This document shows positions 1,408-53,826 of a stretch of 64,000 nt of DNA, in pieces (the stretch's first letter is position 1; each line of letters starts with the position of its first letter). The notes below the pieces were generated by a model. The model had not been told where the DNA came from, searched no databases, and was given only the letters and a program-made list of their open reading frames with translations. A program made the position numbers and the translations under genes. Source of the DNA: Sorex araneus (taxonomy: Eukaryota; Chordata; Mammalia; Eulipotyphla; Soricidae). The DNA lies in the NCBI RefSeq assembly GCF_027595985.1, contig NC_073302.1, positions 393,752,403 through 393,816,402 on the forward strand, read 5' to 3'.

Positions 1408-1657
1408 TGGTCACTGTCACTGTTCACTGTCATCCTGTTGCTCATCGATTTGTTCGAGCAGGCACCAGTAACGTCTCTCATTGAGAGACTTATTGTTAAT
1501 GTTTTTGGTATATCCAATACACACAAGTAGCTTGCCAGGCTCTGCCGTGCAGGCTCGATACTCTCAGTAGCTTGCCGGGCTCTCCGAGAGGGGTGGAGGA
1601 ATTGAACACGGATTGGCCAAGCGAAAGCCCAACCGCTGTGCTATCACTCCAGCCCCC
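1408..1657 (-). mobile_element. SINE-B (tRNA head plus RTE-derived body) inside L1 ORF2
   Basis: It is minus-oriented. The 3' tail (CACTGTCACTGTTCACTGTC) is at the left and the head (GCTATCACTCCAGCCCCC) at the right. The flanking duplication is AATATAGTACCA (1396-1407) and AATATAGTATCA (1658-1669), with one mismatch. The body carries the RTE-like GCTTGCCAGGCTCTGCCGTG segment. Confidence 0.93.
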
Positions 1658-3859
1658 AATATAGTATCATATCTTCTGAAAATAGTGAGAGCTTGTTTTC
1701 TTCCTTTCCTATCTGGATGCCCTTAATATCTTTCCCTTGCCTAATCGCTACTGCAAGTACTTCCAGTACTATATTGAATAGAAGTGGAGAGAGTGGTCAT
1801 TCTTGTCTTGTCCTTGATCTTACAGGGAAGACTCTTAGTTTTTCCCCATTGAGGATAATGCTTGCCATAGACTTGTGGTAGATGGCTTTGAATATATTGA
1901 GGAAAGTTTCTTTAATACCCATTTTAGTGAGAAATTTCATCATAAATAAGTGCTGGATCTTGCCAAATGCTTTCTCTGCATCTATTGATATGATCATATG
2001 GTTTTTATCTTTACTTTTATTGATATGATGGAACTATGTTGATTGATTTCCGAATGTTAAACCATCATTGCATCCCCGGGATGAATCCCACTTGATCATG
2101 GTGTATGACCTTTTTGATGAGTTGTTGGATGATAGTTGTTTTGATGAGTTGTCTATTTGCTAATATTTTGTTGAGGGTCTTCGTAACCGTATTTATCAGA
2201 GATTTTGGACTATAATTTTCTTTTTTTTGTGTGGTTTTTCTCTTTGTTTTTGGCATTAGGATAATATGTACTTCATAGAAACTGTTTGAGAGTGTTTCTG
2301 TTTCTTCAGTTTCCTGGAAAAGCTTTGAAAGAAATGGCAATAAATTCTATTTAAATGTTTGTAAGAATTCCTTAGTGAATCCATCTGAACCTGGGCTTTT
2401 GTTTTTGGGAAGAATTTTGATTACAGTTTCAATTTCCTTGATAGTAGTAGGTCTATTCAGGTATTCCAAATCTTCTTGGTTCAGCCTTGGGAAGTTATAG
2501 AAATTCAGGAATTTATCCATTTCTTCTAGGTTCTCTTGTTTCTTGACATACAGACTTCCAAAGTAATCTCTGATGATCTTTTGAATTTCTTTTGTTTCTG
2601 TTGTGATGTCCCCCTTTTCTTTTCTGATTCGATTTATTAGGGTTCTTTCTCTCTCTTTCTTTGTGAGTCTTGTTAGTGGTTTATCAATCTTGTTTATTTT
2701 CTCAAAGAACCAGCTTTTGGTTTCATTGATGTTTTGAATTATTCTTTAGGTTTCTATATCATTAATTTTTTTCTCTAAGTTGTTATTTCTTTCCTTCTGC
2801 CTGGTTTGGTCTCCTCTTGTTGGTCCTTTTCTAAGATCTTGAGCTGTGAAGTCAAGTTATCTATGTAGGCCCCTTCTTCCTTCTTGATAAATCCTTGCAG
2901 AGCTATAAATTTTCCCCTTAACACTGCTTAAGCTCTGTCCCAGAGTTTCTGGTAGCACATGTCTTCATTTTCTTTTGTTTCCAGGTATCTTTTGATTTGT
3001 TCCTTTATTTTCTCCCTGACTCACTCATTCTTCAACATTGAGTTGTTTAATTTCCAGGTGTTTGATTTGATTCTCCATGCCAGTGTGTGATTAACTTTTA
3101 TATTCAGTACATTGTGGTCTGAAAAGATAGTTGATACAATTTCTATCTTCATCATTATATTTGAAGTATGGTTTTGTGACCCAGAATATGGTCAATCTTG
3201 GAAAATTTTCCATGTGCACTGGAAAAAAATGTGTATTTGTTTTTGGGGGAGATGGTAGGCCCTGTATATATCAATTAGCTTTCTGTCTTCTATTTCTTCC
3301 TTCAAATCCAGTACTTAATGTCCTGGTTTTAATCTTGCTAATATATCCAGAGGTGATAAGATGGTGTTGAATTCTCCAGCTACTATCGTTTTGCTACCAA
3401 AGTCCTCCTTGAAGTATATTAGCAGGTGTTTTAAGTATTTAGCTAGTCCCTCAGTGGCGTGTATATGTTTAGGAGTATGATTTCTTCCTGCTGTACATAT
3501 CTGTTGATTATTAAAAATGGTCTTTTCTGTCCCTTCTAATATTCTTCAGCTGAAATCTATGTTGTCGAATACTAGTATGGCCACTCCAGCTTTTTTGAAG
3601 AAGTTGTTTGCTTGAAGGATTGTTTTCCATTCTTTGACTTTGAGTCTGTGTTTGCTCTGACTGTTCAGATGTGTTTCTTGTAGGCAACAGAAAGTTGGGT
3701 TCAGTTTTTTAATACATTTTGCCACTCCGTGTCTCTTAATTGTTGCATTTACACCATTGACATTGAGAGAGATTATTGTCATTGGGTTTTGTGCCATCTT
3801 TCTGTAGAATTTTGTTGTGCTTGTAGGGTTTTTTCTTGTCTTACAGTAGCCCCTTTAGT

Positions 3860-7199: not shown

Positions 7200-8027
7200 T
7201 CTTCTTTTTTTTAGGGTTAAAATATCAATTTTATTCTCATGAGATTTGTTCAGCTTTTAAAACATTTATTTATTTAATTACCATAAGAACAGATAAAAAG
7301 CTTTTATGTTTGAGTCTCAGTCATACAATGATCGAATAGCCATTCCTTCACCAGTGCACATTTTCCATCACCAAAAATCCCAGTATACGCCCCCCCCATC
7401 CCAATGCTACCCCTGCCTGTGTGGCAAGAGAATTTCCACATTTCTTTCTTTCTACTTTGATTACATTCAATATTTTGTCACAAGTCCCACCATTATTATT
7501 TGGAATTTTTCCCCAACATTCAGACCTACCAAAAAGGCAACGCTAGACAATTTGTTTTGTATTATGAATAGCATATGACACTCTTGCAGCCGTGCAGTCT
7601 TGGAATTCTAAAATTTCATAATTATGGTCTGGAGAGATCTCTGCTAAGAGCCACTCCGTTCCAAGATTTGTTTGTGTGTCTCGTGGATCATGGCCATTGA
7701 GGGGCTTAATAAGTAGTCAGGTGGCCATTTATGGGTGTCATCTCAGGGTCCCATTGGGGTGGGAGAGATGGGCCAGCTCCTTCCCTATCCCTTGAGGCCT
7801 GGCATTTGCCATTACTGCTGCTCCATACCTGGGTTTTCCAATGACTTCTGGAAGATGGCGGCCACCAGGATTCCTGGAGAACAGGCAGAGGGATGGCACC
7901 TGCTCCCGTCTGGAGAGAGCAGGAGGCCTGGTGAAAGTGGCCTAATGCAGAGTCCAGAGGCATTTCTGCCAAGAGCTGCCAAGAGCTGCTCGGTTCCGAG
8001 ATTCATATGTGTGTCTTTATAACTTCC
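7200..8027 (-). mobile_element. Composite retroelement C: L1-like 3' end plus ~335-bp repeated 5' unit
   Basis: The 3' end is at the left. The segment from about 7262 (CACCAGTGCACATTTTCC, CCCAGTATACG, CTGTGTGGCAAG) matches the 3' segments of the elements at 39580 and 48711, and more weakly the L1 3' end at 21544. GC-rich sequence follows, with a direct repeat of GTTCCAAGATTTG (7658) and GTTCCGAGATTCA (7993), offset 335 bp. A YY1-like AAGATGGCGGCC lies at 7852-7863. No ORF of known type is present. The edges are uncertain; AGCTTCCTTTTTT-like sequence near 7185 and 8015 may be a target-site duplication. Confidence 0.65.
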
Positions 8028-8324: not shown

Positions 8325-8885
8325 CGACAATCACAATCACGATCACGAAATCACGTTAATCGTTGGTTTCTCGAGCGGGCTCAGTAACCTCTCCATTCGT
8401 CCTTTCCCTGAGATCTTAGAAGTCTCTCTCGACTGGACCCTCCTAAAGATGTCACACTGGAGGCTCGTTCAGGGTCAGGGGAATGAGATCCAGCTTGCTA
8501 CTGGATTTAGCATATGAATACACAATGGAAAGCTGTCCTATGTGAGCAGGAAAGTCTCAGAAGCTTTCTAGTTTCTCCCAGAGGGAGAAGTAGGCTACAA
8601 GATATCGCTTCTGGGAGCTTGCTTTTAAGTCTCTCTCTGGATGTTGGCCATTGATGGGATTACACACACCTGGGTTCCTCTGCCAGTACCTTCATGCGTG
8701 AGGCCTGTTCGATCGATCGTGTGGAGAGGGGCCTCGAGCATGGCTGTAGCTAGATTCCCATGGTTTTCGGCCTCCGGGAGCTCTGCTTGGGGTGGGGAGG
8801 GAAGCTGGAGCCCATTCCCTTCGAGGGGCCCCGTGGTAGACAGACGTGTGGGCAAGAGACTGCAACACGGCATCCACTTGATATC
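8325..8885 (-). mobile_element. Long RTE-related non-autonomous element without a SINE tRNA head
   Basis: On the minus strand it shares the SINE-B/RTE layout: TCTCGAGCGGGCTCAGTAAC near 8371, TTAGCATATGAATA near 8509 and TCTCCCAGAGGG near 8574. It adds a module (CCTGAGATCTTAGAAG and CAGGGTCAGGGGAATGAGA) also seen at 47396-47642. The region 8590-8885 is a different, GC-rich head with GTTCGATCGATCGTG and no A/B boxes that I can see. The tail contains ATCAC repeats. It could be a decayed RTE LINE 5' end joined to its tail. Confidence 0.6.
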
Positions 8886-12729: not shown

Positions 12730-12980
12730 GGGATAGAGTGATAGCACAGCAGGTAGGATGTTTGCCTTGCACACTGGCTGACCTGGGTTCGATTCCTCCA
12801 CTCCTCTAGGAGAGCCTGGCAAGCTACCGAGAGTATCTCACCTGTATGGCAGAGCCTGGCAAGATACCTGTGGTGTGTTCCATATGCCAAAAACAGTAAC
12901 AATAAGTCTCACTATGGAGATGTTGCTGGTGCTTACTCTAGCAAATCGATGAGCAATGGGATGACAGTGACAGTGACAGT
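12730..12980 (+). mobile_element. SINE-B (tRNA head plus RTE-derived body)
   Basis: The pol III A box TAGCACAGCAG (12742-12752) and B box GGTTCGATTCC (12786-12796) are well kept. The body (CTGGCAAGCTACCGAGAGTA, ATGCCAAAAACAGTAACAA) matches the RTE 5' region at 38260-38370. The tail GCAAATCGATGAGCAATGGG, then GATGACAGTGACAGTGACAG, matches the RTE 3' tail. The flanking duplication is TCTAGTACTAT/TCTACTACTAT. It is the best copy for defining the family. Confidence 0.95.
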
Positions 12981-12999
12981 GATCTACTACTATCTTTAT

Positions 13000-13543: not shown

Positions 13544-13721
13544 TTTTTTTTTTTTGCTTTTTGGGTTCACACCCCGCGATGCACAGGGGTTACTCCTGGT
13601 TCTACACTCAGGAATTACTCCTGGTGGTGCTCAGGGGACCATATGGGTTGCTGGGATTCAAACCCAGGTTGACCGCGTGCAAGGCAAATGCCCTACCCGC
13701 TGTGCTATCGCTCCAGCCCCC
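13544..13721 (-). mobile_element. SINE-A with clear target-site duplication
   Basis: It is flanked by a perfect TGAAAATGAA duplication at 13534-13543 and 13722-13731. It runs from the T-run, GCTTTTTGGGTTCACACC, to TGTGCTATCGCTCCAGCCCC. It is little diverged. Confidence 0.95.
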
Positions 13722-20403: not shown

Positions 20404-20640
20404 GGGCTGGAGCCATAGCACAGCGTCAGGGCGTTTGCCTTCCACGCGGCCAACCCAGGTTCAATTTCTCCGCCCCTCTTGGAGAACCTGGCAAGCTACC
20501 GAGAGTATCTCGCCCTCATGGCAGAGCCTGGCAAGCTACCCGTGGCGCATTTGATATGCCAAAAACAGTAATAACAAGTCTCAAAATGGAGATGTTATGG
20601 GGCCTACTCGAGCAAATCGATGAGCAATGGGATGACAGTG
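20404..20640 (+). mobile_element. SINE-B with perfect 11-bp target-site duplication
   Basis: ACAATAAAATT flanks it at 20393-20403 and 20641-20651. The order is tRNA head, RTE 5'-type body (GGCAAGCTACCGAGAGTATC) and RTE tail (CGAGCAAATCGATGAGCAAT). It has no A-tail. Confidence 0.96.
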
Positions 20641-20719
20641 ACAATAAAATTATTATTAATAAAATGTAAATAAATTCATGGATATACTTATGAATAAGAT
20701 GAGTAAGCTATTACAATGG

Positions 20720-23940: not shown

Positions 23941-24108
23941 TTTTTCTTTTTGGGTCACACCTGGCGTTGCACAGGGGTTACTTCTGGCTTTGTACTCAGG
24001 AATTACTCATGGCGGTGCTCAGGGGACCATATGGGATGCTGGGAATTGAACCCGGGTCAGCTACATACAAAGCAAACGCCTTACCCGCTGTACTATCACT
24101 CCAGCCCA
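23941..24108 (-). mobile_element. SINE-A
   Basis: It runs from CTTTTTGGGTCACACC to TGTACTATCACTCCAGCCC. TTATAGTTTTTT flanks it near 23929 and 24109. Confidence 0.94.
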
Positions 24109-25944: not shown

Positions 25945-26187
25945 TATAGCACTGTAGCACTGTCATCCTGTTGTTCATCGATTTTGCTTGAGCGAGCACC
26001 AGTAACGTCTCCATCATGAGACTTGTTGTTACTGTTTTTGGCATATCGAATACGCCATGGGTAGCTTACCAGGCTCTGCCGTGTGAGTGGGATATTCTCA
26101 GTAGCTTGTCGGGCTCTCTGAGAGGGATGGAGGAATCGAACCCGGGTTGGCCGCATGCCCTACCTGCTGTGCTATTGCTCTACTTTT
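25945..26187 (-). mobile_element. SINE-B
   Basis: Tail side GCACTGTCATCCTGTTGTTC, RTE-like body GTTTTTGGCATATCGAATAC, head GGAATCGAACCCGGGTTGGC and TGTGCTATTGCTC. Confidence 0.94.
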
Positions 26188-28639: not shown

Positions 28640-28886
28640 ATAGCAATCACTGTCACTGTTATCCCATTGCTCATCAATTTGTTCTAGCGGGCACCAGTAA
28701 CGTCTCTCATTGAGAGACTTATTGTTACTGTTTTTGGCATATCCAATACGCATGGGTAGCCAGGCTCTGCCGTGAGGGGGTCCATACCCTCTGTAGCTTG
28801 CCCGGCTCTCCGAGAGGGGCGGAGGAATCAAACACGGGTTGGCCGCATGAAAGGCAAAAGCCCAACCGCTGTGCTATCGCTCCAGT
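28640..28886 (-). mobile_element. SINE-B
   Basis: Tail CACTGTCACTGTTATCCC, body with GTTTTTGGCATATCCAATAC, head GGCGGAGGAATC and GCTGTGCTATCGCTCCAG. Repeated TATTTTATA on both sides may be the target duplication. Confidence 0.94.
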
Positions 28887-32294: not shown

Positions 32295-32307
32295 CAATAT
32301 GGTATCA

Positions 32308-32541
32308 CTGTAGCATTGTCCTCCCATTGTTCATCAATTTGCTCGAGCAGGCACCAGTAATGTGTCCATCATGAGATTTGTTACTGTTTTTGGCATATGC
32401 CATGGGTAGCTTGCCAGGATCTGTCTTGCGGGCGGGATACTCTCGGTAGCTTGCTGGGCTCTCCGAGAGGGACAGAGGAATCAAACTCAGGTTGGCCTCA
32501 TGCAAGGCAAGCGCCCTAACCACTGTGCTATCACTCCAGCC
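32308..32541 (-). mobile_element. SINE-B with target-site duplication
   Basis: CAATATGGTATCA (32295-32307) and CAATATGATATCA (32542-32554) flank it. Body CTCGGTAGCTTGCTGGGCTC, head CTGTGCTATCACTCCAGC. Confidence 0.96.
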
Positions 32542-32724
32542 CAATATGATATCATAAGATATCATAAGAAATTAATAGCCTGCTAGGTTTCTTCCCATTA
32601 GTGTTTTTATTGGTGATGATGTTTTTGTTTTTAAAAAACCATAAAATGAAAATATCGAAGAGAACAACTCTGTAAAACTTATTAAAAACTCAACCAATGA
32701 GCAGCGGTAAAAGTGATAAGACTA

Positions 32725-33353: not shown

Positions 33354-33601
33354 GGATTGGAGCCATAGCACAGTGGGTAGGGTATTTGTCTTGCACACAG
33401 CCAACCCAGGTTCAATTCCTTTGTCCCTCTCGGAGAGCCCGGCAAGCTACCGAGAGTATCCCACCCGCATGGCAGAGCCTGGCAAGTTACCTATGGCGTA
33501 TTTGACATGCCAAAAACAATAACAACAAGTATCACAATGGAGACTTAACTGGTGCCTGCTCGAGCAAATTGATGAACAATGGGACGACAGTGCTACAGTG
33601 C
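33354..33601 (+). mobile_element. SINE-B with perfect 12-bp target-site duplication
   Basis: TATATGATGGCA flanks it at 33342-33353 and 33602-33613. Head TTGGAGCCATAGCACAGTGG, B box GGTTCAATTCC, body GAGAGCCCGGCAAGCTACCG, tail CTCGAGCAAATTGATGAACA. Confidence 0.97.
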
Positions 33602-34049: not shown

Positions 34050-34590
34050 CTCCAACTTATCTAAGCCATTTTGTTCTTTTTTAAGATATTTATTGATAAC
34101 CTTAGAATTCATTATAAACCATTTTAGATAAACCGGCTTAGAGTATTTATCAGTTTGATTCATATTGCATAACTCAAAAAAGCCAAAGAAAAGTATTAAT
34201 AAATTTTACAAAGTTTAAACTATTGGCGTCTAGTTAAGTGGTAACTTAAAGATCTTTTTCTTTTGTGAAATAGCCTATTAAGTCTTATAATTTCCTTATG
34301 CAACAACAAAATAACAATTTAGTTAACATATCTCACCACATATACGGTTTATTTTGCAACAATTCAAAACATTGAATATGTTATCAGAATTATAAGCCCA
34401 AAATTTATTTGATGTCATTTAGGTGTTTTTGACACCCAATTCTGATATTAATCACTAATTTTATGGCGACCACGAAGATGAAATTTCTTATCAAATTATG
34501 TATTTGCTGAGTATATGTCTTAATATTGTCTAATTTGTTATGCTTATTTTTGCATAATAGCACTTTTAAAAATTTTGATACAGTAAACTT
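34050..34590. other. AT-rich stretch without a recognised gene
   Basis: No repeat or exon was recognised up to the RTE boundary near 34592. Confidence 0.5.
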
Positions 34591-34591
34591 C

Positions 34592-35836
34592 AAAGCTTTC
34601 AAGCTCATTGAGGTTTCGCGAGAGTTCAAGATGCTGCTCTGTCTAACATTCATCGACTTAAAGAAGGCCTTTGATTCTGTTGAGACTGAAGCGGTCATCG
34701 AAGCCCTAGCCAAACAAGGCATGCAAACTCAGTACATCAGGATCCTCCTCGAGCTGTATTACGGATTCACCACCAGGATCTCACCATTCTACAAGGAAGT
34801 GATCATTGACGTAAAGAGAGGCATTTGGCAGGGCGATACCATTTCAACGAAATTCTCAGTGTCACCCATGAGAATGTCATGCAACGACTGGAATGGGAAA
34901 GAATGGGAGTGAAGATAGACGGTCAGCAACTACACCACCTCTGCTTCTTTGATGACATTGTTCTCATAACACCAAACATTAGCCAAGTGGCATGAATACT
35001 GGCCGACTTAGACTGTGAGTGTGGAAAGGTCGGACTGCAGCTGAATCTCACGAAGACAATGTTCATGAGAAATGAACTAGTTCCTAACGTTCCTTTTGCT
35101 CTCAAAGTAATGAACATCTTGGATGCAGCAGTTATGTGTACCTGGGTTGAGAACTCAATATGAAGAAAAACTTGGCACCAGAACTGCACAGGAGGAAGAG
35201 AGTGGTGTGGAACGCCTTTAAGAGTATCGAAGAATGTTAAGAGGATGAAGAACCTCCAGCTCCAGGCACATCTTTTCGACTGCACCATTCTTCCTGCACT
35301 AACATACGCCTCACAGACCTGGACCCTACGAAAATTAAAATAAAATTATATAAATTGAATTAATTGATAGCATCATAATTTTTCTAATCAATATATAGAT
35401 AGACAGATTTTTATTTTGGAATTATATGTTACAATAGGAATTGAAAGCTATGCTTGGAGTATCATATTTCACTCAAGTCAAAAAAGGAATCCAGAGTTCT
35501 GACCTCCATCAATGATCGAGAATCAGGGATGCTGTATCGTTTGCCAAGGTGTTGAAAATAAGATGGGCTGGACATGTAATGCGATTTGGAGACCACTGCT
35601 GGACTAGAGCTGTTGCTGACTGGATTCCACAGTACGTCAAAAGAACACATGGAAGCCCACCTATGAGATAGCCAGACTTCTTTGTCAAGACCCTGAACAA
35701 ACGGTTTGAGGCTCTTCCTTTTCCTGGACTAAGCAGATGCCATTGGGCTACACTAGCATGAGACAGGGTCAAATGGAGACATTACTGCTGCCCGCTCGAG
35801 CAAATTAATGAGCAACAGGATGTGAAGTGATACAAA
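34592..35836 (+). pseudogene. 5'-truncated RTE-clade LINE, RT domain to 3' tail (copy 2)
   Basis: RTE LINEs encode one protein with an APE endonuclease and a reverse transcriptase. This copy starts inside the RT. It shows CLTFIDLKKAFDSVETEAVI (34640-34700), RISPFYKEVIIDVKRGIWQG (34777-34836) and the catalytic box at 34945-34956. There FADD is changed to FFDD. Next come LNLTKTMFMRNEL and, after 35455, the C-terminal IRSSDLHQ-type region. Stops and frameshifts break it. An AT-rich ~105-bp stretch (about 35333-35438) interrupts it after WTLRK. The 3' tail at 35768-35833 (CGAGCAAATTAATGAGCAAC, GTGAAGTGATACAAATGA) matches the other RTE copy and the SINE-B tail. Confidence 0.9.
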
Positions 35837-35839
35837 TGA

Positions 35840-36230
35840 AACTTCAAACAATATTTATATGAGATGTCTAACATACCTTTTACCTTTTTTTAAAAACTAT
35901 TTTTATGATATGGTTATCTTCTAAATCCTGCTTTTTACCCCATCCAGTGGGATTATTATTTGAGATTTATCTCTACTTAGGAATCTCTTTTTATTCATCA
36001 ATCACTGGCTTACAATTATTAATTAACATTGCAAATTACTTCCAATTCTTATTCTATAGCAAGAGACAGTGGCATAGAGGTAGTAGTGAAAACACTCAAG
36101 GCAAATAAAAAATATTATTCTTTACTCCAGAATTGAAAGAATTTCTGAGAAATTTAGAAACATTATTATGCTTTATTTACATACTTGATAACTGAATATT
36201 CATTATTTTTATTAGAATTTAATTGTTAAG
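35840..36230. other. AT-rich stretch without a recognised gene
   Basis: No repeat or exon signal was recognised. Confidence 0.5.
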
Positions 36231-37399: not shown

Positions 37400-37858
37400 T
37401 TGTAGCATAGTTAAAATACTGTTAGTGCTTATGTTTTTGATGACAAAGTTACTGCACCTTCACCATTACCAAAGTGTTCAGACCTTCCACCACTATTTTA
37501 TATCACCACTAATCTGTTTGTTCCTTCCTCTCAAGCCTTCTCCCAAGGTTAGGTCTCCTTTTTATAGTAAGAGTCTAAAGGCTTGTCGTGATTTCATTTT
37601 GTCTATTCCTTTACATTATTTCTCTGTATGCCATAGATTAGAGACCACAGTGAATTTATCCTTCTCCCTCTGACTAGTTCTGCTTATCATGATATACTCC
37701 AATTCTATCAAAGTTGTAGCAAACTGCAAGTTTTTATATTTCTTATAGTTTAGTAGCATTCTTTCAAAACTATATCCAAAAACTTCTTTCTCCATTCATC
37801 TATGGCTGGAATTTTTGTTGTTTCCATATTCTGGCTATTGTTCTTGGTCTGCAAAAAA
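37400..37858 (-). mobile_element. L1 3' end, left part, interrupted by the RTE insertion
   Basis: Read antisense it holds the L1 3' UTR (CCACCACTATTTTATATCAC) and the ORF2 end. The 37670-37858 part follows the usual wording CTTTCTCCATTCATCTATGG, then TATTCTGGCTATTGTTCTTG. The RTE begins at about 37859. The L1 resumes at 42183. Confidence 0.75.
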
Positions 37859-38482
37859 CATGATATAGCTATATCCGGACCGCTTTCCAGAGACTTAGGT
37901 CGAACCTCACGCATGAGTGGAGCCCCACAGAACCAGGTAAAGCAGAACTTTGTGACCTTGGACTCCAGGCTCAACAAGACCCTGAAACAAGATCCTCTGT
38001 CTAAGTCCTCCAATCTCCGCCGCCCATGGATCAAACCCAGATGATGCAACCTACGTGTGCCAGATAAATACCTCATTGACCAAAATCCATTACTTCTACT
38101 ACCCAACCACTGCCACACTCCAGGCCACTTTCCAAACACACCATATAGCACTTAATACCCATTTTCCATAATTTCTGTACCATATTTGATGGGTTCAAAT
38201 ATGGTGTGAACCATGGGAACACCTGTAAGGGCAAATGGAAGCCACCCTAAAAGTCTCCATCCCTCTTGGAAAGCCCGGCAAGCTACCAAGAGTACCTTGC
38301 ATGCATGGCAGAGCCTGGCAACCTAGCCATGGTGTATTCAATATGCCAAAACTAGTAACAACAATGGGCCTCATTTGCCTGACACTGAAGGAGCCCCCAA
38401 TATGGCAACGTTAAGAAGGATGAGCAAGGAGAGGCTGATAAAATCTCAGGGACAAACTAGACTACCAAAACGAAGGACTAAA

Positions 38483-41400
38483 ATGACTATCTATACTTTC
38501 AATGCACGTATGTTGCATTGGAAGCATCCATTGAGGACCTGATGATGCAAACTCAGAAGATCAAGTATGACATCATTGGTCTGACTGAAATGAGAAGGCA
38601 TGGATCACGTCACGCCATTTTCGACACTGGAGAACTGTGCCTCGGAACATGCAAGAACAGAGGCATTGGTGACACAGATGTTCTTGTCAACACAAACTTG
38701 GTCATAAACATTGATTCATTCAAATGCCTAACAACCCAAATCGGATGATTAAGCTTGAATAGATGTGGCTCACTGCTGGCAATTTCTATCTTCGTCGTCT
38801 ACGCACAAACATCCAACTACTATGAAGAAGAAATTGAGAAGTTCTACATGGATCTGAAGAAGTTTTAGAAAGAAGACCACACCTTCTACAAGATCATTGT
38901 CGGTGATTTTAATGCCAAGATAGGACCAAGAAGGTTGCCCAAAGAACTCCACATTGGGACCCATGGCCTAGAATGGAATGAACAGGGTGAGAGACTGTCT
39001 GAGTTCATCATGTCAACCAAGATCATCAATGGTAACTCGCAGTTCCAGAAAGCCAAATCTAAACGTTGGACATAGGAGTCTCCCGCTGGACAGTTCCACA
39101 ACAAAATTGACCACATCATATTCAATCGAAGGTTTTGCTTGCTGTTGTCCAAAAATTCTAAATGCGATCAAACCACCATCTCCTCCGTCCAAAATTCTAC
39201 TTCACAGAGCGGGCGGAAAGGTCTGCGAAGTTTAAATTTAAGAAGAGAACTCCCAGAATGACCACCAACTAGGAGCTCTTTGGCACTATTGGCAATGTGG
39301 GAAGATACCCTCGTTGACAACATCGACAAGGAATACAATCGACTGGTTCAGCACCTCCATGACTGCACAAGGAATGCCAAGAGTAGGAAAGCCACAAACA
39401 GATGCCTGTCTTCGGAAACTCTCGAGCTCATTCGCCAACATGGTTTGGCACGAGCCTCAAGCAATCACATGCTAACATCAGAGCTCACAAAGCTGTGCAG
39501 AGAAGCGATAAAGGAAGACCTCAAAGAGAGAAGCACAGCAGTGTTGGCCGATGGGGTAGAAGTCAGGAAAAGTATTCTCTCTTTTTTTAAAATTTATTTT
39601 ATTGAATCACCATGTGGAAAGTTACAAAGTTCTCAGGCTTATGTCTCAGTTATACAATGCTCAAACACCCATCCTTTCACCAGTGCCCATATTCCACCAC
39701 CCAAAAAAAAAAACCCCAGTATACATCCCACCCCTCACCCCCAACTCCCCCCCCCGCCGCGTAACTGATTAATTTCACTTCCTTTTCTCTTTACCTTAAT
39801 TACATTCCATATTTCAACAAAAAACTCACTATTGTTGTTAGAGTTTTAACACAGAACTCACTATTCTTATTGGAATTTATCCCCCAAGAATACAGCCCTA
39901 TTGACAAGGAAATATTTGATAATTAGTTTTCCACTGATGAGAATGAAGAGATAAAAAGTTGCGCGGCTGCAGTAGTGACCGAGCAGTTTACAATTTCTGT
40001 ATTTTAGTAATTAAGTCCAGGGAGATTTAATTTGGAAATTGAATCATTTCCCTTTCTGGAGCAGCATGGAACAAAAGCTTAGTTCACAGTCTGGATACAT
40101 GGTTGCAAGCACTCGCTGGAACCCTAAGTCATATAGCTGGCTCTGGATCCTGCTCGTTCTGCAGCCAAGCCTCTGTGCAAAGGCATGGCCACCCAGGTCA
40201 AATCTCAGCGGGAGCCTGAGCTCCGGCCCCGGCCTGAGACTGCCAAGGCGTCCCAGTGTTTCAAGTTCAAAGCACTTTTTTTTTTCCGTGCCACAAAGTT
40301 CATACCTGCTCAAAGGTCCCATAAAATGTTGGACACCACACCTCCTCCTCCCGGAGGGAAGAGAGACCAAGGAAGAAGGATATTTCCTCCCTTGGCTGGC
40401 GTGGGGCAAAAGCTTAGTTCTTAGTCTGGATACATGGTTGCAAGCACTCGCTGGAACCCCAAGTCATATAGCTGGCTCTGGATCCTGCTCGTTCCGCAGC
40501 CAAGCCGCTGTGCAAAGGCATGGCAACCCGGGTCGAATCTCGGCCGGAGCCCGAGCTCCAGCCCTGGGCCGAGACTAGGAAACGTATTCTCAGTGCTCGC
40601 CTGTCCTTCGCCAACTTCAAGACCAAGATGACTGTCCTCCAATGTCCTGATAGGTCTGTCTCATCTTCCATAAGGGCAATGGAGAGGATTATTTACGACT
40701 TCTACTCGTATCTCTTCAATAGCTACGTCCACCTGCCCACATACCAAATTCTACAAGATGAATATGTCGTTCCCAACGTCCTCCCTTCTGAAATCCGACA
40801 CGCCATTTTATCTGTAAAGATACATACAGCACCCTGTCCAGTCAAAGTCAGACCTGAACACCTGAAGAATCTTCTGCCAGTATTTGTCAATACACTGGCT
40901 CGGCTCTTCACACGCTACCTGTCCGAATGCAAGATTCCCTCCTAATGGAAAACCAGCAGGATCATTTTGTTGTACAAGAAGGGAGACATCCATGGCAACT
41001 ATTGCCCAATCTGCTTGTTGTCTGTCGTCTACAAGTTGTTCACTCGAGTCATCCTGAATAGAATAGGCAGAACACTAGATGAAGGACAACCATGTGAGCA
41101 AGCTGGGTTCTGAAAAGGATTCAGCACGATTGACCATATCTACACTATGATGACCATATCTACACTGTGACCATGCTCATTGAAATTTTGTGAGAATTCA
41201 AGATGCCGCTCTGTCTATCATTCATCGATTTAAAGAAGGCCTTTGATTCTCTGAGACTGAAGTGGTCATTGAAGCCCTAGCCAAACAGGGCATTCAAACT
41301 CAGTACATCAAGATCCTCTATGAGCTGTATTATGGATTGACCAGCAGGATCTCACCATTCTACAAGGAAGTGATCGTTGTTGTAAAGTGAGGGATTCAGC

Positions 41401-42107
41401 AGGGCAGTACCATTTCACTGAAATTCTTCAGTGCTACCCTCGAGAAAGTCATGTGATGACTGGAATGGGAAGAAATGGGAGTGAAGATAAACGGCAGCAA
41501 CTACACCACCTCCACTTTGCTGATGACATCATTCTAATAACAGCAAACATTAGCCAAGGGGCATAAATGCTGGCTGACTTCGACTGCGAGTGTGGAAAGG
41601 TCAGACTGCAGCTGAATCTCACAAAAACTATGTTCATCAAAAACAAACTAGGCACTGACATTCTATTTGCTCTCAACGAAATGAATATCTCCGAATGCAG
41701 CAGCTATGTGTACCTGGATCTAGAACTCAACATGAGGAACGTCTTGGTGAAAGAACTGCGCAGGAGAAAGAGAGCAGTGTGGAATGCCTTCAAGAGCTAT
41801 GCTTGGAGTATCACATTTCACCCAAGTGAGAGAAGGAATCAGGAGTTCTGACCTCCATCAAAGATCAAGAATCAGGGACACTATCTCTATTGGCAAGGTG
41901 TCAAAAATCAGATGGGCTCGACCCATAATTCGATTTAGAGACCACTGCTGGACTAGAGCTGTTACCAACTGGATTCCACAGGATGTCAAAAGACCGAGTG
42001 GCCACCCACCTATGAGATGGTCAGACTTCTTTGTCAAAACCCTGGATGAAAGTTTTGCGGCTTCATGTTTCTTGAGTGAGCAGATACTATTGAGCTACTC
42101 TAGCACA
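38483..42107 (+). pseudogene. RTE endonuclease-reverse transcriptase, broken
   Basis: Starts MTIYTFNARML. Endonuclease motifs: DIIGLTEMRRHGS (38566-38604), GDFNAKIGP (38902-38928) and IDHIIFNRR (39106-39132). The linker reads LTSELTKLCREAIKEDLKER (39475-39534). After the nested element come VLPSEIRHAI, RPEHLKNLLPVF and LARLFTRYLSECK (40780-40932), then LYKKGDIHGNY, LSVVYKLFTRVILNR and EGQPCEQAGF (40970-41112). Next are the catalytic FADD box (41516-41527), LNLTKTMFIKNK, and the C-terminal IRSSDLHQRSRIRDTISIGK and RWSDFFVKTLDE regions. Many stops and shifts occur. The wording is closer to RTE-1-type proteins of nematodes and arthropods, as I remember them, than to BovB. Confidence 0.88.
39580..40577 (-). 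mobile_element. Composite retroelement A: L1-like 3' end plus tandem ~335-bp units
   Basis: It is inserted in the RTE ORF with duplication GGAAAAGTATTCTC (39566-39579) and GGAAACGTATTCTC (40578-40591). The 3' end is at the left: A-tail seen as T's, AATAAA as reverse complement of TTTATTGAATCACC, then CACCAGTGCCCATATTCCACC. From 40072 a GC-rich unit (CAAAAGCTTAGTTC, TGGATACATGGTTGCAAGCA) recurs at 40407, a 335-bp period, giving almost two units at the 5' end. Open frames there (for example 40039-40578) change with strand and look incidental. Confidence 0.85.
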
Positions 42108-42182
42108 TGAAAGGGACAAATGTAGATGTTACTGGTGCCTGCTCAAGCAAATCAAAGATCAATGGGATGACAAGTGATACAA

Positions 42183-42500
42183 GAATGATGGTTATATAAC
42201 TTTGAATTAATGCTTTTGTGTTTGTGGAGGTAGATAATAAGAAGTAGAATTGCTGCCTATGAATATTCTATAGTGACATTTTTTGGTTTATTTTTGATGT
42301 ATGTCATTTTCACTGGTGTGAGATAATATCTCATTGCCATTTGATTTTCACATTACTGATAATGAGTGATGATGAATACCTTCTTATATGCTTATTGATC
42401 ATCTATATGTCTTCTTTAGGAAGGGTCTATTCATCTCCTCTTTCCATTTTTGGATGGGGTTGTTAACCTATTTCTTTGCATTTAATGTAAATTCCTGTGA
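42183..42500 (-). mobile_element. L1 3' end, right part, after the RTE insertion
   Basis: Continues the L1 broken at 37858. The antisense ORF2 end includes GTAGAATTGCTGCC, CACTGGTGTGAGATAATATC, CTTCTTTAGGAAGGGTCTAT and TTTTTGGATGGGGTTGTTAA. Confidence 0.75.
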
Positions 42501-46002: not shown

Positions 46003-46125
46003 GGAACCTGTGGCGTATTCGATATGCCCAAAACAGTAAAAACAATTCTCACCATAGGGATGTTACTGGTGCCCGCTCAAGCAAATTGATGAACAACGGG
46101 GCAGCAGTGCTACAGTGCGACAGTG
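46003..46125 (+). mobile_element. 5'-truncated SINE-B or RTE tail
   Basis: Starts inside the RTE-like body (GTGGCGTATTCGATATGCCC) and includes the full tail (CTCAAGCAAATTGATGAACA, CAGTGCTACAGTGCGACAGTG). The tRNA head is absent. Confidence 0.85.
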
Positions 46126-47395
46126 TTACAATGGAAGTGCTAGAAATTAAGATATAAGAGTCAAAGCTTAAATCCTGGTCTAATGAAAAAGTTATTTCTG
46201 ACAATAATTATGGATTTATTGTTTTAGTTTGGGCTGTAAAAACTAAATACCACAGACTAAGGGGTACAAAAAGACTGAATATTCAGACAAGAAAATCAAA
46301 GATATCAAAATTGGAAAAGAAGTCAAATTATTACTATTTGCAGAGGACATGATAATGTACATAAAAATCCCCAATGAGTCCACACACAAAAAGCTTTTAG
46401 GATAAATAGACCAATACAGCAAAGCATCTGGCTACAAAGTCAATACACAAAAATTGGTTGCAATCTTATATACAATGAATGAATCAGAGGATAAAGCAAT
46501 CAAGGAGGCTATCCTATTTTAAAAAGTGTCCAAAAATATCAAGTACCTAGAAATCAACTCAACAAAAGACGTAGGAGATTTATACCATGAAAAATGCATA
46601 TTACTTAAGAAAATGATAGACTTGGGAAATTGAAAAAAATGTCCATGTTCAAATATCAGAAGAATCCATGTTGTTAAAAATGACTATCCTACCTAAGCAA
46701 TTATATAGATTCAAAGCAATGTCCACCCAAATTCAGATGGTATTCTTTAAGATGGTATTCCTTTTCTTTTAGAAAATTTTGTAACTCAGTTTATATGGAA
46801 CCAGAGACTCCAAATAGAAAAAGCCATACTCAAAAATAAGAAATTGGGAAGTCATCTGCTTTTATATAAGCTTTCATACTGTAATATATAATGGATATCA
46901 AAATGCATGGTACTGGAATAAAGACAGGCTCTCTGATCAATGGATCAGAACATAACACCCAACCACAAAACCCCCCATTTATGGGCTGTTAATTTTAGGT
47001 GAAGAACATGAGTGAAGATAGCCTCTTCAAAAAATGGTGCTGGGAAAACTGGATAACCACATGTAAAAAATAAATAAAGCTGGACATATATCTCACATCA
47101 ATTCAAAGCAGATCAAAGGCCTTGAGATTTAACATAAAACTATAAAGTAAATCAAGGGAAACATAGGCACAATACTCCAAGATTTAAACTTCAAAGACAC
47201 CTTCAATGATCCGCTGGCAAAGTAAACAGAAGAATAAATAATCAAATGGGAGTACATCAAATTAGAGTTTCCAAATGGTGAAAGAAATACATGTTAAAAG
47301 AAAACAGCTAATTGAATGGGGAAAAATGTTCTCATTCAACTCATCAATTAAAGGGTTGATATCCAGGATATAAAAAGTACTCATGGAAATCACTG

Positions 47396-47642
47396 TATCA
47401 CTGTCATCTGTTGTTCATCGATTTACTGAGCGGACACCAGTGTAATCTCTATTATTCCCAGACCTGAGATTTTAGAGGCCTCTCCTTATTTGTCTTTCCC
47501 AACGATTGGAGGCTCTTTCAGGGTCAGGGCGATGAGACCTATCATTACTGTTTTTAGCATATCAAATACACCATGGGTAGCTTGCTGGGCTCTGCCTGTG
47601 CGGGCAGGATACTTCTGGTAGCTTGACGTGCTCTCTGAGAAG
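47396..47642 (-). mobile_element. RTE-related SINE variant with extra module
   Basis: It has the SINE-B tail and body. Between them lies CCTGAGATTTTAGAGGCCTC and CAGGGTCAGGGCGATGAGAC, a module absent from SINE-B but present at 8325-8885. The tRNA head is missing; the copy runs into a TA/CA microsatellite instead. Confidence 0.8.
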
Positions 47643-47702
47643 TATATATATGTATATGTACATATACATATATATACACACACACATATATACATATATA
47701 TA
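47643..47702. repeat. (TA)n/(CA)n microsatellite
   Basis: An alternating TATATG, CATATA and ACACAC array has replaced the expected 5' end of the adjacent SINE. Confidence 0.9.
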
Positions 47703-48710
47703 CTACTCTCTATGATTTGTTGCCTACTGTCTGAAATGCATCCAATATGGTGTAGTAATTATGGAAAATGGGTCTGGAAGTGTCTTATAATGTGTTGAAA
47801 ATCAACCCCCCAAAATTAAAAACCCTATCAAAAAATGGGGAGAGGAGATGAACATATTCTTTTCAGAGAAAGACAAGTAGATGGCCAATAAGCACAAAAG
47901 AAAATGCTCAGCATCAGTTATTGGTTATAGAAATCCAAATCAAGAAGACAATGAGATATCATCTCACACCATTTAGAATGCTACATATCAGAAATAGTAA
48001 GGACAATTTGTGTTGGTGGGATGTGGTGAAAAGGAACTCTCATCCACTGCTAGTGGGAATGTTTTCTGGTTCAAGCCCTGTGAAATTGTATGGAGTCCTC
48101 AAGAAACTTAGAGTTAAACTGCCATCTGACCCAGCAATTCCACTTTGGGGCATCTACCCACAGGACATAAAAACATACATTCAAAAGGACATATGCACAC
48201 CACCATTATTGCATTGCTACACTAAGTATAGTAGCTAAGATATTTCATCAGAAGAAATGAAGATCAAAAAAATACCCCATCAAAATATAAAACAGGAAAA
48301 ATTTTTGCAGAGAACAGATGAGATAAATATATACTAACTTGTAAAATTATAGGTCAAGCATTATTATATCAATAATCACAATAAAAGGATCTTTCGGAAA
48401 ATGTTTGGTATTAATTATATAGTAAAATAATAAAATAAGTGCAAACCAGCATGGGTAGTTGGAGTGGGGGGTGGTTGGAGTGAAGAAATGGGAGTGGAGG
48501 GCAAAGTGGGAAGATCTAGGTTTAAAACCTGAAATGGGTCTCATAGTTCTCAAACATTATTTGGTGATTCAGATCAAAAGGGATGTGACTATTATGTCTA
48601 AAAGGCATAGGTTTGCACAAGTCTATGGAATAACAACATAGAAAGTTTTCATTTTAGATGGCAGTTACACACTAGGTCTAAAAGAAGTATTAAATTCTTG
48701 TAGTTTGTTT

Positions 48711-49897
48711 GTTTGGGTTTTTTTTTTTTTGCTTTTTTTAAAAAAATTTTTTATTGAATCACCATGTGGAAAGTTACATAGTTCTCAGGGTTATGTCAGT
48801 TATACAATACTCAAACACGCTTCCCTTCGCCCTAGTCCCCGCCCTTGTAAGTGATAAGTTTCACTTTGTTTACTCTTTATCTTGATTACATTCCATGTTT
48901 CAACTCGTAACTCCCTATTGTTGCTGGAGTTCTCCCCCCAAAAAAGACAGTCCTACTGCCAAGGAAGCATTGATAGTTTTCTATTGCTGAGAATGTAGAG
49001 ATATTAAGTCCTGCTGTTTGTTACATAACTTTTTTTTTCTTTTTTTCCCCCCTCCTTCCCGCGCCACTGAGTTCATGCCTACTTAGTAATCCTCATAGTA
49101 CGATTTGACGCCACGCTGCCTGACAAAGGGAAAAGAACCGAGAAAGATGGTTATTTCCCGTCATCAGCCGGTGTGGGGCTATAGCTTAGTTGATAGTCTA
49201 GCAGCATGCCTGCAAGCAGTTTCTGGAACCAAAAGTAGTGCGCTGGTATCGGCCCTGGCTCGAGACTCCACCAGCATCCCGCTGTTCCATGTACATAGTA
49301 ATTTTTTTCCCCTTATATCCCGTTCCCACGCCACCAGGTTCATGTCTGCTTAATGGACATCATAATACGTCTATCGCCACTCTGCCTTTCAGCGGGTCTC
49401 ACAGGAGATCCCAGGGGGCGGGGAAGTACCGGTCCCTGCCCCCCCCCCCCCCGCCGACACTTAAGCACAGTGGACCCACGTGCGCTACCCTTTCGCCACT
49501 GCTGCCGCTCCAGCATGAACGAGGAGCCCCAAAGAGCTACTTTGGACACCAGCAGCCCAATGAAATACTTCCAGAATGTGAACTGAGCATCTATGCCAGG
49601 CTGCTATAGCGGGGGTAGGGTAACTCTCTTTTTTTTTTAATCTCTCTCTCTCAACCCCTCCCTCCTGGGCACAGCAAATCTTTCACCACTTTTCCTTGAG
49701 CACAAAATGGAGACACCAATCCAGCAGCAGCCGGTCTCGCGGGAGATCCCAGGAGGCGGGGAAGTACCAGTACCGCCCCCCGCCGACACTTAAGCACAGT
49801 GGACCCACGTGCGCTCCCCTTTTGCCGCTGCTGCCACTCCAGCATGAACGAGGAGCCCCAAAGGGCTACTTTGGACACCAGCAGCCCAATGAAATAC
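48711..49897 (-). mobile_element. Composite retroelement B: L1-like 3' end plus repeated GC-rich units
   Basis: The 3' end at the left (TTTATTGAATCACCATGTGG, GATTACATTCCATG) matches composite A at 39590-39810. GC-rich unit sequence follows (CGCGCCACTGAGTTCATGCC, GGCTATAGCTTAGTTGATAG, GCAAGCAGTTTCTGGAAC), matching the composite A unit. GTTCATG recurs at 49071 and 49338. Further up, GGTCTCACAGGAGATCCC (49395) recurs as GGTCTCGCGGGAGATCCC (49733), a 338-bp offset. A C14 run lies near 49440. At the right it meets a SINE-A. Confidence 0.8.
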
Positions 49898-50066
49898 TGT
49901 TTTGCTTTTTGAATCACACCTGGCGATGCACAGGGCTTACTCCTGGCTCTGCACTGAGGAATTACTCCTGGCAGTGCTCAGGGGACCATATGGGATGCTG
50001 GGAATCAAACCCGGGTCGACCTCGGGCAAGGCAAACGCCCTACCCGCTGTGCTATTGCTCCAGCCC
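49898..50066 (-). mobile_element. SINE-A joined to the 5' end of composite B
   Basis: Runs from GCTTTTTGAATCACACC to TGCTATTGCTCCAGCCCC. I see no target duplication on its own boundaries. TCTTGTAGTTT (48696) and TCTTCCTAGTTT (50069) could flank composite B and the SINE together. Confidence 0.9.
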
Positions 50067-50594: not shown

Positions 50595-50605
50595 AATAAT
50601 ACAAT

Positions 50606-50858
50606 CACTGTATCACTGTCATCCCGTTGCTCATCGATTTGCTCAAGCGGGTACCAATAACATCTCCATTGTGAGACTTCGATTGTTTTCACTGTCTTTG
50701 GCATATTGAATAGGCCACGGGTAGCTTGCCAGCCTCTGCCGTGAGGGCGAGATACTCTCAGTAGCTTGCTGGGCTCTCTGAGAGGGAAGGAGGAATTAAA
50801 CCTGGGTCCGTCTCGTGCAAGGTGAATGCCCTACCTGCTGTGCTTATTGCTCCATCCC
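50606..50858 (-). mobile_element. SINE-B with perfect 11-bp target-site duplication
   Basis: AATAATACAAT flanks it at 50595-50605 and 50859-50869. Tail CACTGTATCACTGTCATCCC, body GCCACGGGTAGCTTGCCAGC, head GAATTAAACCTGGG (B-box complement). Confidence 0.96.
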
Positions 50859-53431: not shown

Positions 53432-53660
53432 TAATAGCACAGCGGTACGGTGTTTGCCTTGCACATGACCAACCTGGGTTCGATTCCTCTGCCCCTCTCG
53501 AAGAGCTTGGCAAGCTACCGAGAGTATCTCGCCCACACTGCAGAGCCTGGCAAGCTACCCATGGTGTATTCAATATGACAAAAACAGTAATAAGTCTCAA
53601 ATTGAGACATTACTGGTGCCCGCTTGAGCAAATCAATGAGCAATGGGATGACATTGACAG
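53432..53660 (+). mobile_element. SINE-B
   Basis: Slightly shortened head (AATAGCACAGCGGTACGG), B box GGTTCGATTCC at 53478-53488, body GGCAAGCTACCGAGAGTATC, tail GAGCAAATCAATGAGCAATG and GACATTGACAGTG. Confidence 0.95.
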
Positions 53661-53661
53661 T

Positions 53662-53826
53662 GATTTATTTAGCCACACTCAGTCTTACTCAAGGCTTATT
53701 CCTGGCACTGTGCTCGGGGATTACTCCTCACAGCTGTGGGGGGCCATCTGTGGTTCTGGGACCTAATCTGGGTCTATGGCATGCCAAGCAATTGGCTCAC
53801 CCACTACAGTATCTCTCTTGCTCAGA
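53662..53826 (-). mobile_element. Diverged SINE-A next to a SINE-B
   Basis: TTAGCCACACTCAGTC, GGGGATTACTCCTCACAG and GGCATGCCAAGCAATTGG follow SINE-A order on the minus strand. The SINE-B at 53432 probably inserted in its tail. Confidence 0.75.

Follow-up and report, generated by a model that had tools for sequence, protein, structure and literature searches.

A tRNA-headed SINE of Sorex araneus with a two-part body shared with a nearby RTE-clade LINE, its probable means of mobilisation

The LINE copies and their headless, internally deleted forms

The window, a stretch of 64,000 nucleotides of Sorex araneus DNA (contig NC_073302.1), contains two copies of a LINE (RTE1 and RTE2), two headless mini-RTEs (C and D) and two kinds of SINE, here called SINE-A and SINE-B, and all that follows refers to this one window. 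The LINE-related features are as follows.

37877..42182, plus strand: RTE1 (RTE LINE copy 1), decayed, 5' boundary approximate; weak endonuclease match and likeness to RTE2
38255..38364, plus strand: RTE1 5' module common to SINE-B; 84.5% to SINE-B consensus
38448..38456, plus strand: upstream member of the 9-nt repeat pair AGGGACAAA; alignments place it at the C/D junction
42112..42120, plus strand: downstream member of the same 9-nt pair AGGGACAAA, in RTE1
42119..42181, plus strand: RTE1 3' end common to SINE-B; C-terminal codons RDKCRCYWCLLKQIKDQWDDK, then stop
34595..35838, plus strand: RTE2 (RTE LINE copy 2), 5'-truncated; RVT_1 match
34585-34594 and 35839-35848: RTE2 TSD AAACTTCAAA, score 10
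35772..35834, plus strand: RTE2 3' end common to SINE-B; codons DRVKWRHYCCPLEQINEQQDVK, then stop; 82.5%
47389..47796, minus strand: mini-RTE C, a headless, internally deleted RTE; from alignment to RTE1
8340..8586, minus strand: mini-RTE D, a headless, internally deleted RTE; from alignment to RTE1, 5' extent may be longer

Both LINE copies presumably belong to the RTE clade, to judge by their ORF layout. They are 83.9% identical across 627 nt of the reverse transcriptase region, and RTE1 is split by an L1-type insertion at 39590-40580. When the RTE1 endonuclease frame was read through its stops it matched Exo_endo_phos (E 0.0015) and Exo_endo_phos_2 (E 0.008), both under the Pfam cut-offs; one of three read-through stretches gave a weak endonuclease match and the other two none, and no endonuclease or reverse transcriptase match was found in Pfam for seven single frames of RTE1. 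RTE2 matched RVT_1 (E 5.9e-05, under the Pfam gathering score), and its reverse transcriptase piece had no confirmed relative in collections of viral contigs, phages, plasmids or genome contigs. The 5' limit of RTE1 appears to lie at about 37877, roughly 380 bp upstream of 38255, a boundary that is uncertain because no clear TSD was found for this copy. The 3' piece shared with SINE-B is coding in both LINEs, where it forms the last ~20 codons at the C-terminal end of the RTE ORF. An open frame from 38327 runs into the endonuclease domain, and C and D repeat its PDPE-like peptides, all of these copies being dead. The idea that the 5' piece holds an HDV-like ribozyme was dropped; Rfam returned three sub-threshold matches on 37700-42300, none of them a ribozyme, which were judged to be chance.

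The two mini-RTEs have closely similar structures. C matches RTE1 at 76.4% (gap-free columns) up to ~38450 and then at 77.3% from ~42113 to the 3' end; D does so at 74.0% (gap-free columns) up to ~38452 and at 76.8% from ~42106 to the 3' end, so that the junction is common to both within a few nucleotides. It coincides with the 9-nt direct repeat in RTE1, a repeat equalled by 32 of 2000 shuffles and seen in RTE1 alone, the RTE2 3' end having no match there above 5 nt. No tRNA head was seen in either. The sequence upstream in D gave an alignment to the RTE1 5' region that 3 of 300 shuffles equalled, and had no similarity to that upstream in C (262 of 300 shuffles as good); where D and RTE1 begin is therefore uncertain. 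A K2P value of 0.54 for D was discarded, as the stretches compared were badly matched.

Anatomy of SINE-B and its relationship to SINE-A

A dozen SINE-B copies had been put forward in a sequence-only reading of the same DNA; ten were counted, nine of them near full length and one 5'-truncated. They are listed below with their TSDs, together with the copy of SINE-A that was most informative as to its identity.

1417..1655, minus strand: SINE-B c1655m; TSD score 10
12730..12983, plus strand: SINE-B c12735; TSD score 8
20404..20643, plus strand: SINE-B c20403; TSD ACAATAAAATT
25950..26180, minus strand: SINE-B c26182m; credible TSD not found
28646..28885, minus strand: SINE-B c28882m; TSD score 9, 3' TSD copy begins 22 nt beyond assumed end
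32304..32542, minus strand: SINE-B c32543m; TSD score 10
33358..33600, plus strand: SINE-B c33355; TSD TATATGATGGCA
50604..50858, minus strand: SINE-B c50886m; TSD ATTGTATTATTG
53434..53664, plus strand: SINE-B c53430; weak TSD, score 7
46006..46117, plus strand: SINE-B c46006, 5'-truncated; TSD not found
49929..50066, minus strand: SINE-A (putatively Sor) copy; published forward primer and reverse-primer core match exactly, related head, A-rich tail

SINE-B consists, in order, of a 66-nt tRNA-like head, a ~110-nt RTE 5' piece and a ~63-nt RTE 3' piece. A majority consensus of 249 nt, built from the nine near-full copies, aligned to RTE1 at 38255-38364 with 84.5% identity (110 nt, 111 bits, E 5e-27), in agreement with the earlier proposal of a match near 38260-38370, and to the 3' tails of both LINE copies, as had also been proposed, with 87.3% identity at 42119-42181 in RTE1 (67 bits) and 82.5% at 35772-35834 in RTE2 (58 bits). 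The top score among 20 dinucleotide-shuffled windows was 25.4 bits. BLASTN in the opposite direction, with RTE1 DNA from 37871-38480 as query, matched the nine near-full copies at 73-81% over 101-126 nt and the truncated copy, at 46011, at 83% over 36 nt, and the RTE 3' ends (42001-42200 and 35701-35860) matched all ten. The breakpoints within RTE sequence lie at about AAGTCTCA / CAATGGAGAC, and the element terminates in GACAGT/GATACAGT/GCTACAGT repeats, without poly-A. The alignments thus support the description of SINE-B as an internally deleted RTE provided with a SINE-A-type head; the accompanying statement that it unites both ends of the LINE holds for the 3' end, but the 5' piece is not from the extreme 5' end, RTE1 appearing to reach about 37877. 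Non-CpG K2P distances are 0.050-0.083 for SINE-B copies; for the two RTE1 modules, measured against the SINE-B consensus, they are 0.095 and 0.075, so that the ages overlap. A putative hairpin was noted at the junction; folding of the last 75 nt of SINE-B gave a z of about -2.3, and the RTE tails gave -0.2 and +0.7 (mono-shuffle control). A pattern for the SINE-B body had no matches in viral contigs and one for the tail had none in a genome contigs collection.

A shared segment does not in itself indicate the direction of sharing. The segment is common to both elements and RTE1 is the sole copy in the window that spans the LINE 5' region at length, and it might be supposed that the RTE gained it when a SINE-B inserted there, sharing having run from SINE to LINE. 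This is extremely improbable. No head was seen by eye upstream of 38255 in RTE1 and no SINE tail after 38364, and matches to RTE1 flank the segment on both sides in C (38135-38191 and 38367-38450) and on the 3' side in D (38370-38452), again without a tRNA head. Because C and D continue as RTE past its 3' side, and C upstream of it too, the segment at 38255-38364 is, on the evidence of these alignments, native to the LINE. Insertion of SINE-B into the RTE 5' end, which the sequence-only reading had named as evidence that would count against it, was thus not borne out.

A likely source of the head is SINE-A. The SINE-B consensus gave 17 SINE-A-type matches, the best at 92%, of which 12 stop at position 66-67, with a weak run-on to position 129 in two; the similarity extends through the B box. 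A and B boxes were recognised by eye in the 66-nt tRNA-derived head, in which a pol III promoter is predicted. ARAGORN called two SINE-A heads as tRNA-Ala(tgc) and one as tRNA-Thr(tgt) and made no tRNA call for any SINE-B head. A Soricidae SINE probe found seven sites with no more than three mismatches on SINE-A, compared with none in 100 shuffles, and the forward primer matched exactly at 49987 (primers and probe are given in Table 1 of PMC8608897). From the primers and the tail we infer that SINE-A is Sor. SINE-B was considered as a form of Sor and rejected, the likeness to SINE-A being confined to the head apart from the weak run-on in 2/17, and the tail being GACAGT-type rather than A-rich; Sor has an A-rich tail, its own body and L1-like duplications, whereas SINE-B has an RTE body.

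Insertion sites and the probable mobilising enzyme

TSDs were scored against 3000 random flank pairs, in which scores of at least 9 occurred in 1.8% and of at least 7 in 17%; the near-full SINE-B copies reached at least 9 in 6/9 cases and at least 7 in 8/9. The insertion signature reported for the RTE clade is a run of T about 10 nt before the TSD (PMC13295347). At six of nine sites (5/8 SINE-B and RTE2; local null P 0.0006) a TTT had its centre 8-12 nt before the TSD, an interval chosen following that paper, though some flanks had already been glanced at and the numbers are small. In four other intervals the counts were 6/9, 5/9, 7/9 and 2/9, the last (-7 to -3) showing no excess (P 0.41). 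None of six SINE-A sites carried the signature, one of them (copy 17088) being doubtful because its TSD falls inside the element's own tail. SINE-B alone compared with SINE-A gave a Fisher value of 0.028, or 0.044 without the doubtful site, with TSD cut-offs that differed (at least 7 for SINE-B, at least 8 for SINE-A); with a cut-off of at least 8 for both the figures were 5/7 and 0/6 (Fisher 0.016).

Mammalian L1 is generally known to mobilise many RNAs, and it has to be asked whether L1 moves SINE-B, as it probably does its head relative SINE-A, the RTE tail being a passenger. The pol III head related to that of SINE-A and the L1-like sequence seen by eye in the window would fit, but SINE-B ends in GACAGT-type repeats rather than poly-A, and the insertion sites of the two SINEs differ both in the presence of TTT (5/8 against 0/6) and in that five of the six SINE-A duplications begin with AAA; mobilisation by L1 is therefore very unlikely. 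SINE-B probably borrows the copying machinery of the nearby RTE. Given related heads, and TTT at SINE-B but not SINE-A sites, the same type of head seems to be carried by two different LINE machineries. The coding nature of the tail, the existence of headless deleted forms and the insertion signature that separates SINE-B from SINE-A all go beyond what had been noted before.

Origin of SINE-B and comparison with known systems

With high confidence, SINE-B can be regarded as a SINE that carries a tRNA head on a body of two LINE-derived parts and is moved by a LINE of the RTE clade, which is probably RTE1_Sar. Its formation might have begun with an internal deletion of the RTE at the 9-nt direct repeat, yielding a headless mini-RTE such as C or D, after which a shorter fusion would arise out of the mini-RTE or the full LINE. 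During target-primed reverse transcription the enzyme would then switch to Sor (SINE-A) RNA just 3' of the B box, and the template switch would supply a pol III promoter from which pol III could transcribe the chimera, whose 3' end would be recognised by the RTE protein and copied in trans. Template-switch chimeras are documented for the RTE clade (PMC4476161).

C and D are possible candidate intermediates towards SINE-B. Their junction is ~90 nt from that of SINE-B, however, and they are thus not necessarily ancestors. It is a tangible, though slightly disfavoured, possibility that SINE-B was fused directly from a full-length RTE and that the mini-RTEs are a separate side product. Its breakpoints are unlike those of C and D, and interconversion would require a second deletion of ~90 nt and a loss of ~5 nt, but the 3' breakpoint is nearly identical in SINE-B and the mini-RTEs, and ruminants likewise pair a headless element, Bov-A2, with the headed Bov-tA (PMC3747384 Table 1).

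The tail sharing that the sequence-only reading had described as known, including for BovB-derived SINEs, is indeed so, and the architecture of SINE-B is already known from Bov-tA and AfroSINE. Bov-tA itself is said to have been described by Gogolevsky et al. in 2008 as containing pieces from both BovB ends, and in AfroSINE, Ped-1, Ped-2 and Mar-1 the LINE body is in two parts. Bov-tA, whose partner is Bov-B, resembles SINE-B in joining a tRNA head to an RTE-clade tail and in occurring alongside a headless form, but the LINE and the breakpoints are other than those of SINE-B and the head is from tRNA-Glu (PMC3747384), whereas the shrew SINE-A heads were called as tRNA-Ala or tRNA-Thr. The body of one ruminant Bov-tA-like copy was compared post hoc with the 5' module of SINE-B, RTE1 and C (1/1000, 14/1000 and 11/1000 shuffles as good), and the weak likeness serves as a lead alone because it is post hoc and from a single copy. 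AfroSINE, Ped-1, Ped-2 and Mar-1 also have a pol III head and an RTE-clade tail, in other hosts and with other RTE/Bov-B partners, the head of Ped-1 being 5S rRNA; Bov-A2 (which begins with the BovB 5' end), RTESINE1, MAR4 and RTE1-N1_LA are headless and combine an RTE 5' end with an RTE tail, as do C and D, which differ in their shrew host and in having a common junction in two decayed copies. Among the rows examined of Table 1 of PMC3747384, the source for these elements, no shrew SINE/LINE pair was found. An RTE-tailed shrew SINE was not found described in the literature listings and passages searched, and SINE-B may already be catalogued (Repbase, Dfam, Borodulina & Kramerov 2001).

RTE1_Sar is an RTE in Sorex araneus that is reported to occur in parasitic nematodes too (PMC6542046); "SINE" occurs 0 times in the main text of that paper. 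As the host is a member of the Soricidae and the clade agrees, the partner LINE of SINE-B is probably RTE1_Sar. The chances seem evenly balanced that a successful mammalian SINE has been made, by the two-piece recipe, from a LINE common to the shrew and its parasitic worms. If so, the recipe, in which a pol III promoter is followed by a 5' and a 3' piece, would be the one that ruminants, afrotherians and springhares applied to Bov-B-type RTEs. Recurrent use of the 5' piece would imply that it serves RTE mobilisation in some way, and a minimum date for the LINE transfer would follow from how old the SINE-B copies are; were RTE1_Sar the donor, SINE-B would be a dated consequence of transposon transfer between parasite and host.

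One window holds copies of the donor LINE, its internally deleted forms, the SINE that combines a head with RTE pieces, and another SINE whose head is related but whose tail and insertion signature differ. Since they occur side by side, two questions become testable in one genome: whether the tail alone determines the LINE by which a SINE is mobilised, and for what reason RTE-dependent SINEs retain part of the LINE 5' region. As the tail is coding in the LINE, an RNA signal for the RTE enzyme would overlap the C-terminal codons.

Composition of the SINE-B repeat

The sequence-only reading had taken SINE-B to be a tRNA head fused to the two ends of the local RTE LINE (38255-42182), and this was borne out by BLASTN and by consensus scores, although the copies found by BLASTN in the window numbered ten and not a dozen. 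The 5' DNA of RTE1, the first LINE copy (about 37877-42182, plus strand), matched nine copies at 73-81% over 101-126 nt and a truncated tenth over 36 nt, and the same ten were matched by the 3' ends of RTE1 and of RTE2, a 5'-truncated LINE copy (34595-35838, plus strand). Against a 249-nt majority consensus of nine copies, the truncated one being excluded, RTE1 38255-38364 scored 111 bits and the 3' ends of RTE1 and RTE2 scored 67 and 58 bits, compared with a top score of 25.4 bits in 20 dinucleotide-shuffled windows.

Parts of SINE-B
(i) head, 66 nt, ending directly 3' of the B box as judged by eye
(ii) 5' LINE module, about 110 nt
(iii) 3' LINE module, about 63 nt, with short repeats at its end

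SINE-A, a second SINE with a related head, gave 17 matches to the SINE-B consensus (highest identity 92%), of which 12 stopped at position 66-67, three stopped sooner and two extended weakly to position 129. By sequence, SINE-A is very probably Sor, the T-minus SINE of shrews (PMC11240701, PMC8466645), and the window shrew DNA, because the published Soricidae SINE probe and primers (PMC8608897, Table 1) match SINE-A. The probe fits seven sites with 3 mismatches or fewer (0 in 100 shuffles), an exact copy of the forward primer lies at 49987, and the core of the reverse primer is found at 49937. The 3' end of SINE-A is poly-A. ARAGORN read SINE-A heads as tRNA-Ala(tgc) twice and tRNA-Thr(tgt) once and called no SINE-B head as a tRNA; its tRNA genes at 442-514, 13643-13715 and 24031-24103 (all minus strand) were rejected since they coincide with SINE-A heads.

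In both LINE copies the frame is open through the 3' module to the terminal stop (RDKCRCYWCLLKQIKDQWDDK-stop and DRVKWRHYCCPLEQINEQQDVK-stop), and the SINE-B tail is therefore C-terminal coding sequence of the LINE, whose 3' UTR is almost absent. The tails fall into two linked types. In four copies GATGAACAA is paired with an end of the GCTACAGT type, and in the other six ATGAGCAA goes with an end of the GACAGT/GATACAGT type (Fisher 0.005 for the ten), the end of c32543m being mixed (GCTACAGTGATAC). Among the relatives, ATGAGCAA occurs in RTE2 and GATGAACAA in the deleted copy C described below. The fusion point of the LINE pieces reads GTCTC-loop-GAGAC, each piece giving one arm.

SINE-B junction hairpins (approximate positions)
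1474-1492, minus strand
28703-28721, minus strand
53592-53608, plus strand

The junction sequences (GTCTCTCAATGAGAGAC in c1655m and c28882m, GTCTCAAATTGAGAC in c53430) are perfect palindromes about their centre, and in these few copies could represent a constrained stem or quasi-palindrome correction.

Headless deleted forms and the LINE copies

Two further copies, C and D, are internally deleted.

Mini-RTE copies
C, 47796-47389, minus strand, deleted RTE, no tRNA head seen
D, about 8586-8340, minus strand, deleted RTE, no tRNA head seen

C is RTE1-like through the 5' module to 38450 and continues with the RTE 3' end from 42113, D does so to 38452 and from 42106, and the junctions coincide to within a few nucleotides. 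In RTE1, AGGGACAAA is common to both sides of the jump (38448-38456 and 42112-42120), an equally long match between the two neighbourhoods arising in 32 of 2000 shuffles, and this direct repeat rests on one copy because the 3' end of RTE2 lacks it (longest match 5 nt). C is also similar to RTE1 upstream of the 5' module (0 of 300 shuffles as good). C and D show that the 5' module is native to the LINE and was not placed there by SINE-B. Both resemble Bov-A2 and other "5'-end of RTE" SINEs (PMC3747384, Table 1). Since the internal deletion of SINE-B is about 90 nt longer, a second deletion in a mini-RTE may have produced SINE-B, or the two may be separate in origin. By eye, C seems nested in L1-like sequence (flanks 47800-47860 and 47330-47390, minus strand).

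RTE1 and RTE2, which we take from their layout to belong to the RTE clade, are 83.9% identical over 627 nt. Each gave a domain match that stayed below the Pfam cut-offs, RVT_1 in RTE2 (E 5.9e-05) and, with stops read through, Exo_endo_phos in RTE1 (E 0.0015). RTE2 has AAACTTCAAA on either side; no clear duplication was found in the RTE1 flanks, so that the 5' end of RTE1 is placed only provisionally near 37877. An open frame (38327-38542) extends from inside the 5' module as far as the endonuclease domain and, with its peptides PDTEGAPN (RTE1), PDPERASN (C) and PDPERASS (D), suggests that the ORF may start upstream of the ATG near 38488. RTE1 is broken by an insertion of about 1 kb (39590-40580), L1-type by eye and with a T-rich 5' end denoting reverse orientation, which carries two direct copies of a 178-nt unit (40064-40241 and 40399-40576, 89.9%), has flanks that look alike (AAAAGTATTCTC and GAAACGTATTCTC) and has relatives elsewhere in the window (e.g. 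48744-49285, 7264-7522).

Non-CpG K2P distances to the SINE-B consensus were 0.050-0.083 (mean 0.072) for nine copies, 0.095 and 0.075 for the RTE1 5' module and tail, 0.139 for the RTE2 tail and 0.153 for C; the RTE1-RTE2 value of 0.18-0.22 includes CpG sites and is thus not directly comparable. The ages of SINE-B and the LINE look to overlap. For SINE-A, non-CpG K2P to consensus was 0.054-0.129 in seven copies and at least 0.21 in ten, some of them aligned poorly; some Sor copies look older, consistent with Sor as the source of the SINE-B head. D may be older, its BLAST identity to RTE1 being 66% (74% with gaps uncounted) against 73-81% for SINE-B copies.

Insertion sites and mobilisation

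Target-site duplications (TSDs) reached a score of at least 9 in six of the nine near-full SINE-B copies (1.8% of 3000 random flank pairs) and at least 7 in eight (17% of random pairs), with no credible TSD in the flanks of c26182m or the truncated c46006. According to PMC13295347, LINEs of the RTE clade and their SINEs insert where a run of thymines precedes the duplication by about 10 nt. At 5/8 SINE-B sites and at RTE2 a TTT had its centre 8-12 nt upstream of the duplication, hence 6/9 (null frequency 0.153, binomial P 0.0007; P 0.0006 with same-flank frequencies; P 0.003 for SINE-B alone), c26182m, c46006, RTE1, C and D being outside the count as they have no TSD; these statistics are supportive rather than final, since the interval was fixed after that paper and some flanks had been viewed. 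For SINE-B with RTE2, other intervals gave 6/9 (-13 to -7, P 0.003), 5/9 (-11 to -9, P 0.0009) and 7/9 (-15 to -3, P 0.005), and the control interval (-7 to -3) 2/9 (P 0.41). Among 17 aligned SINE-A copies 13 were tried and six had a TSD; TTT was at 0/6 of these, in the 8-12 nt interval and in every alternative tried, and five of the six duplications start with AAA. SINE-B and SINE-A differed at Fisher 0.028, or 0.044 without the doubtful site of copy 17088, whose TSD lies inside its own A-rich tail, and at an equal TSD cut-off of 8 (5/7 against 0/6) at 0.016.

Target-primed reverse transcription would have begun at the 3' end of the RTE RNA, the 5' module would have been brought in by internal deletion or template jumping, and the pol III promoter would have been gained through a further switch to Sor RNA; template switching by RTE-clade LINEs is described as yielding small-RNA chimeras (PMC4476161). 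The chimera would then be transcribed by pol III, with the RTE enzyme acting in trans.

Relation to known elements

Headed RTE-tailed SINEs reportedly carry two LINE pieces, as Gogolevsky et al. are said to have found in 2008. SINEs with an RTE tail, whether headed by a tRNA or headless, have been described before (Bov-tA, AfroSINE, Ped, Bov-A2; PMC3747384), the rows covered of Table 1 in that paper hold no shrew SINE/RTE pair, and SINE-B may already be in Repbase or Dfam. RTE1_Sar is a LINE reported from Sorex araneus and nine nematode species; its identity to the consensus from Heligmosomoides polygyrus is 80.1%, it was not found in hedgehog, solenodon or mole reads, copy ages gave no confirmation of the direction of transfer, and the main text of that report does not contain the word 'SINE' (PMC6542046). 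The partner of SINE-B is probably RTE1_Sar, judging by host and clade. The IMG/VR "viral" contig IMGVR_UViG_3300023220_000993 holds at 3380-3620 what we take to be a ruminant Bov-tA-like SINE copy, probably reflecting host contamination or a chimeric contig. Its body (3440-3520) and the SINE-B 5' module have GAGCCTGGCAAGCTAC in common, with flanking similarity, and 1 of 1000 shuffles scored as high in this post hoc comparison of one copy; if real, the likeness would point to two captures of one and the same 5' segment of an RTE.
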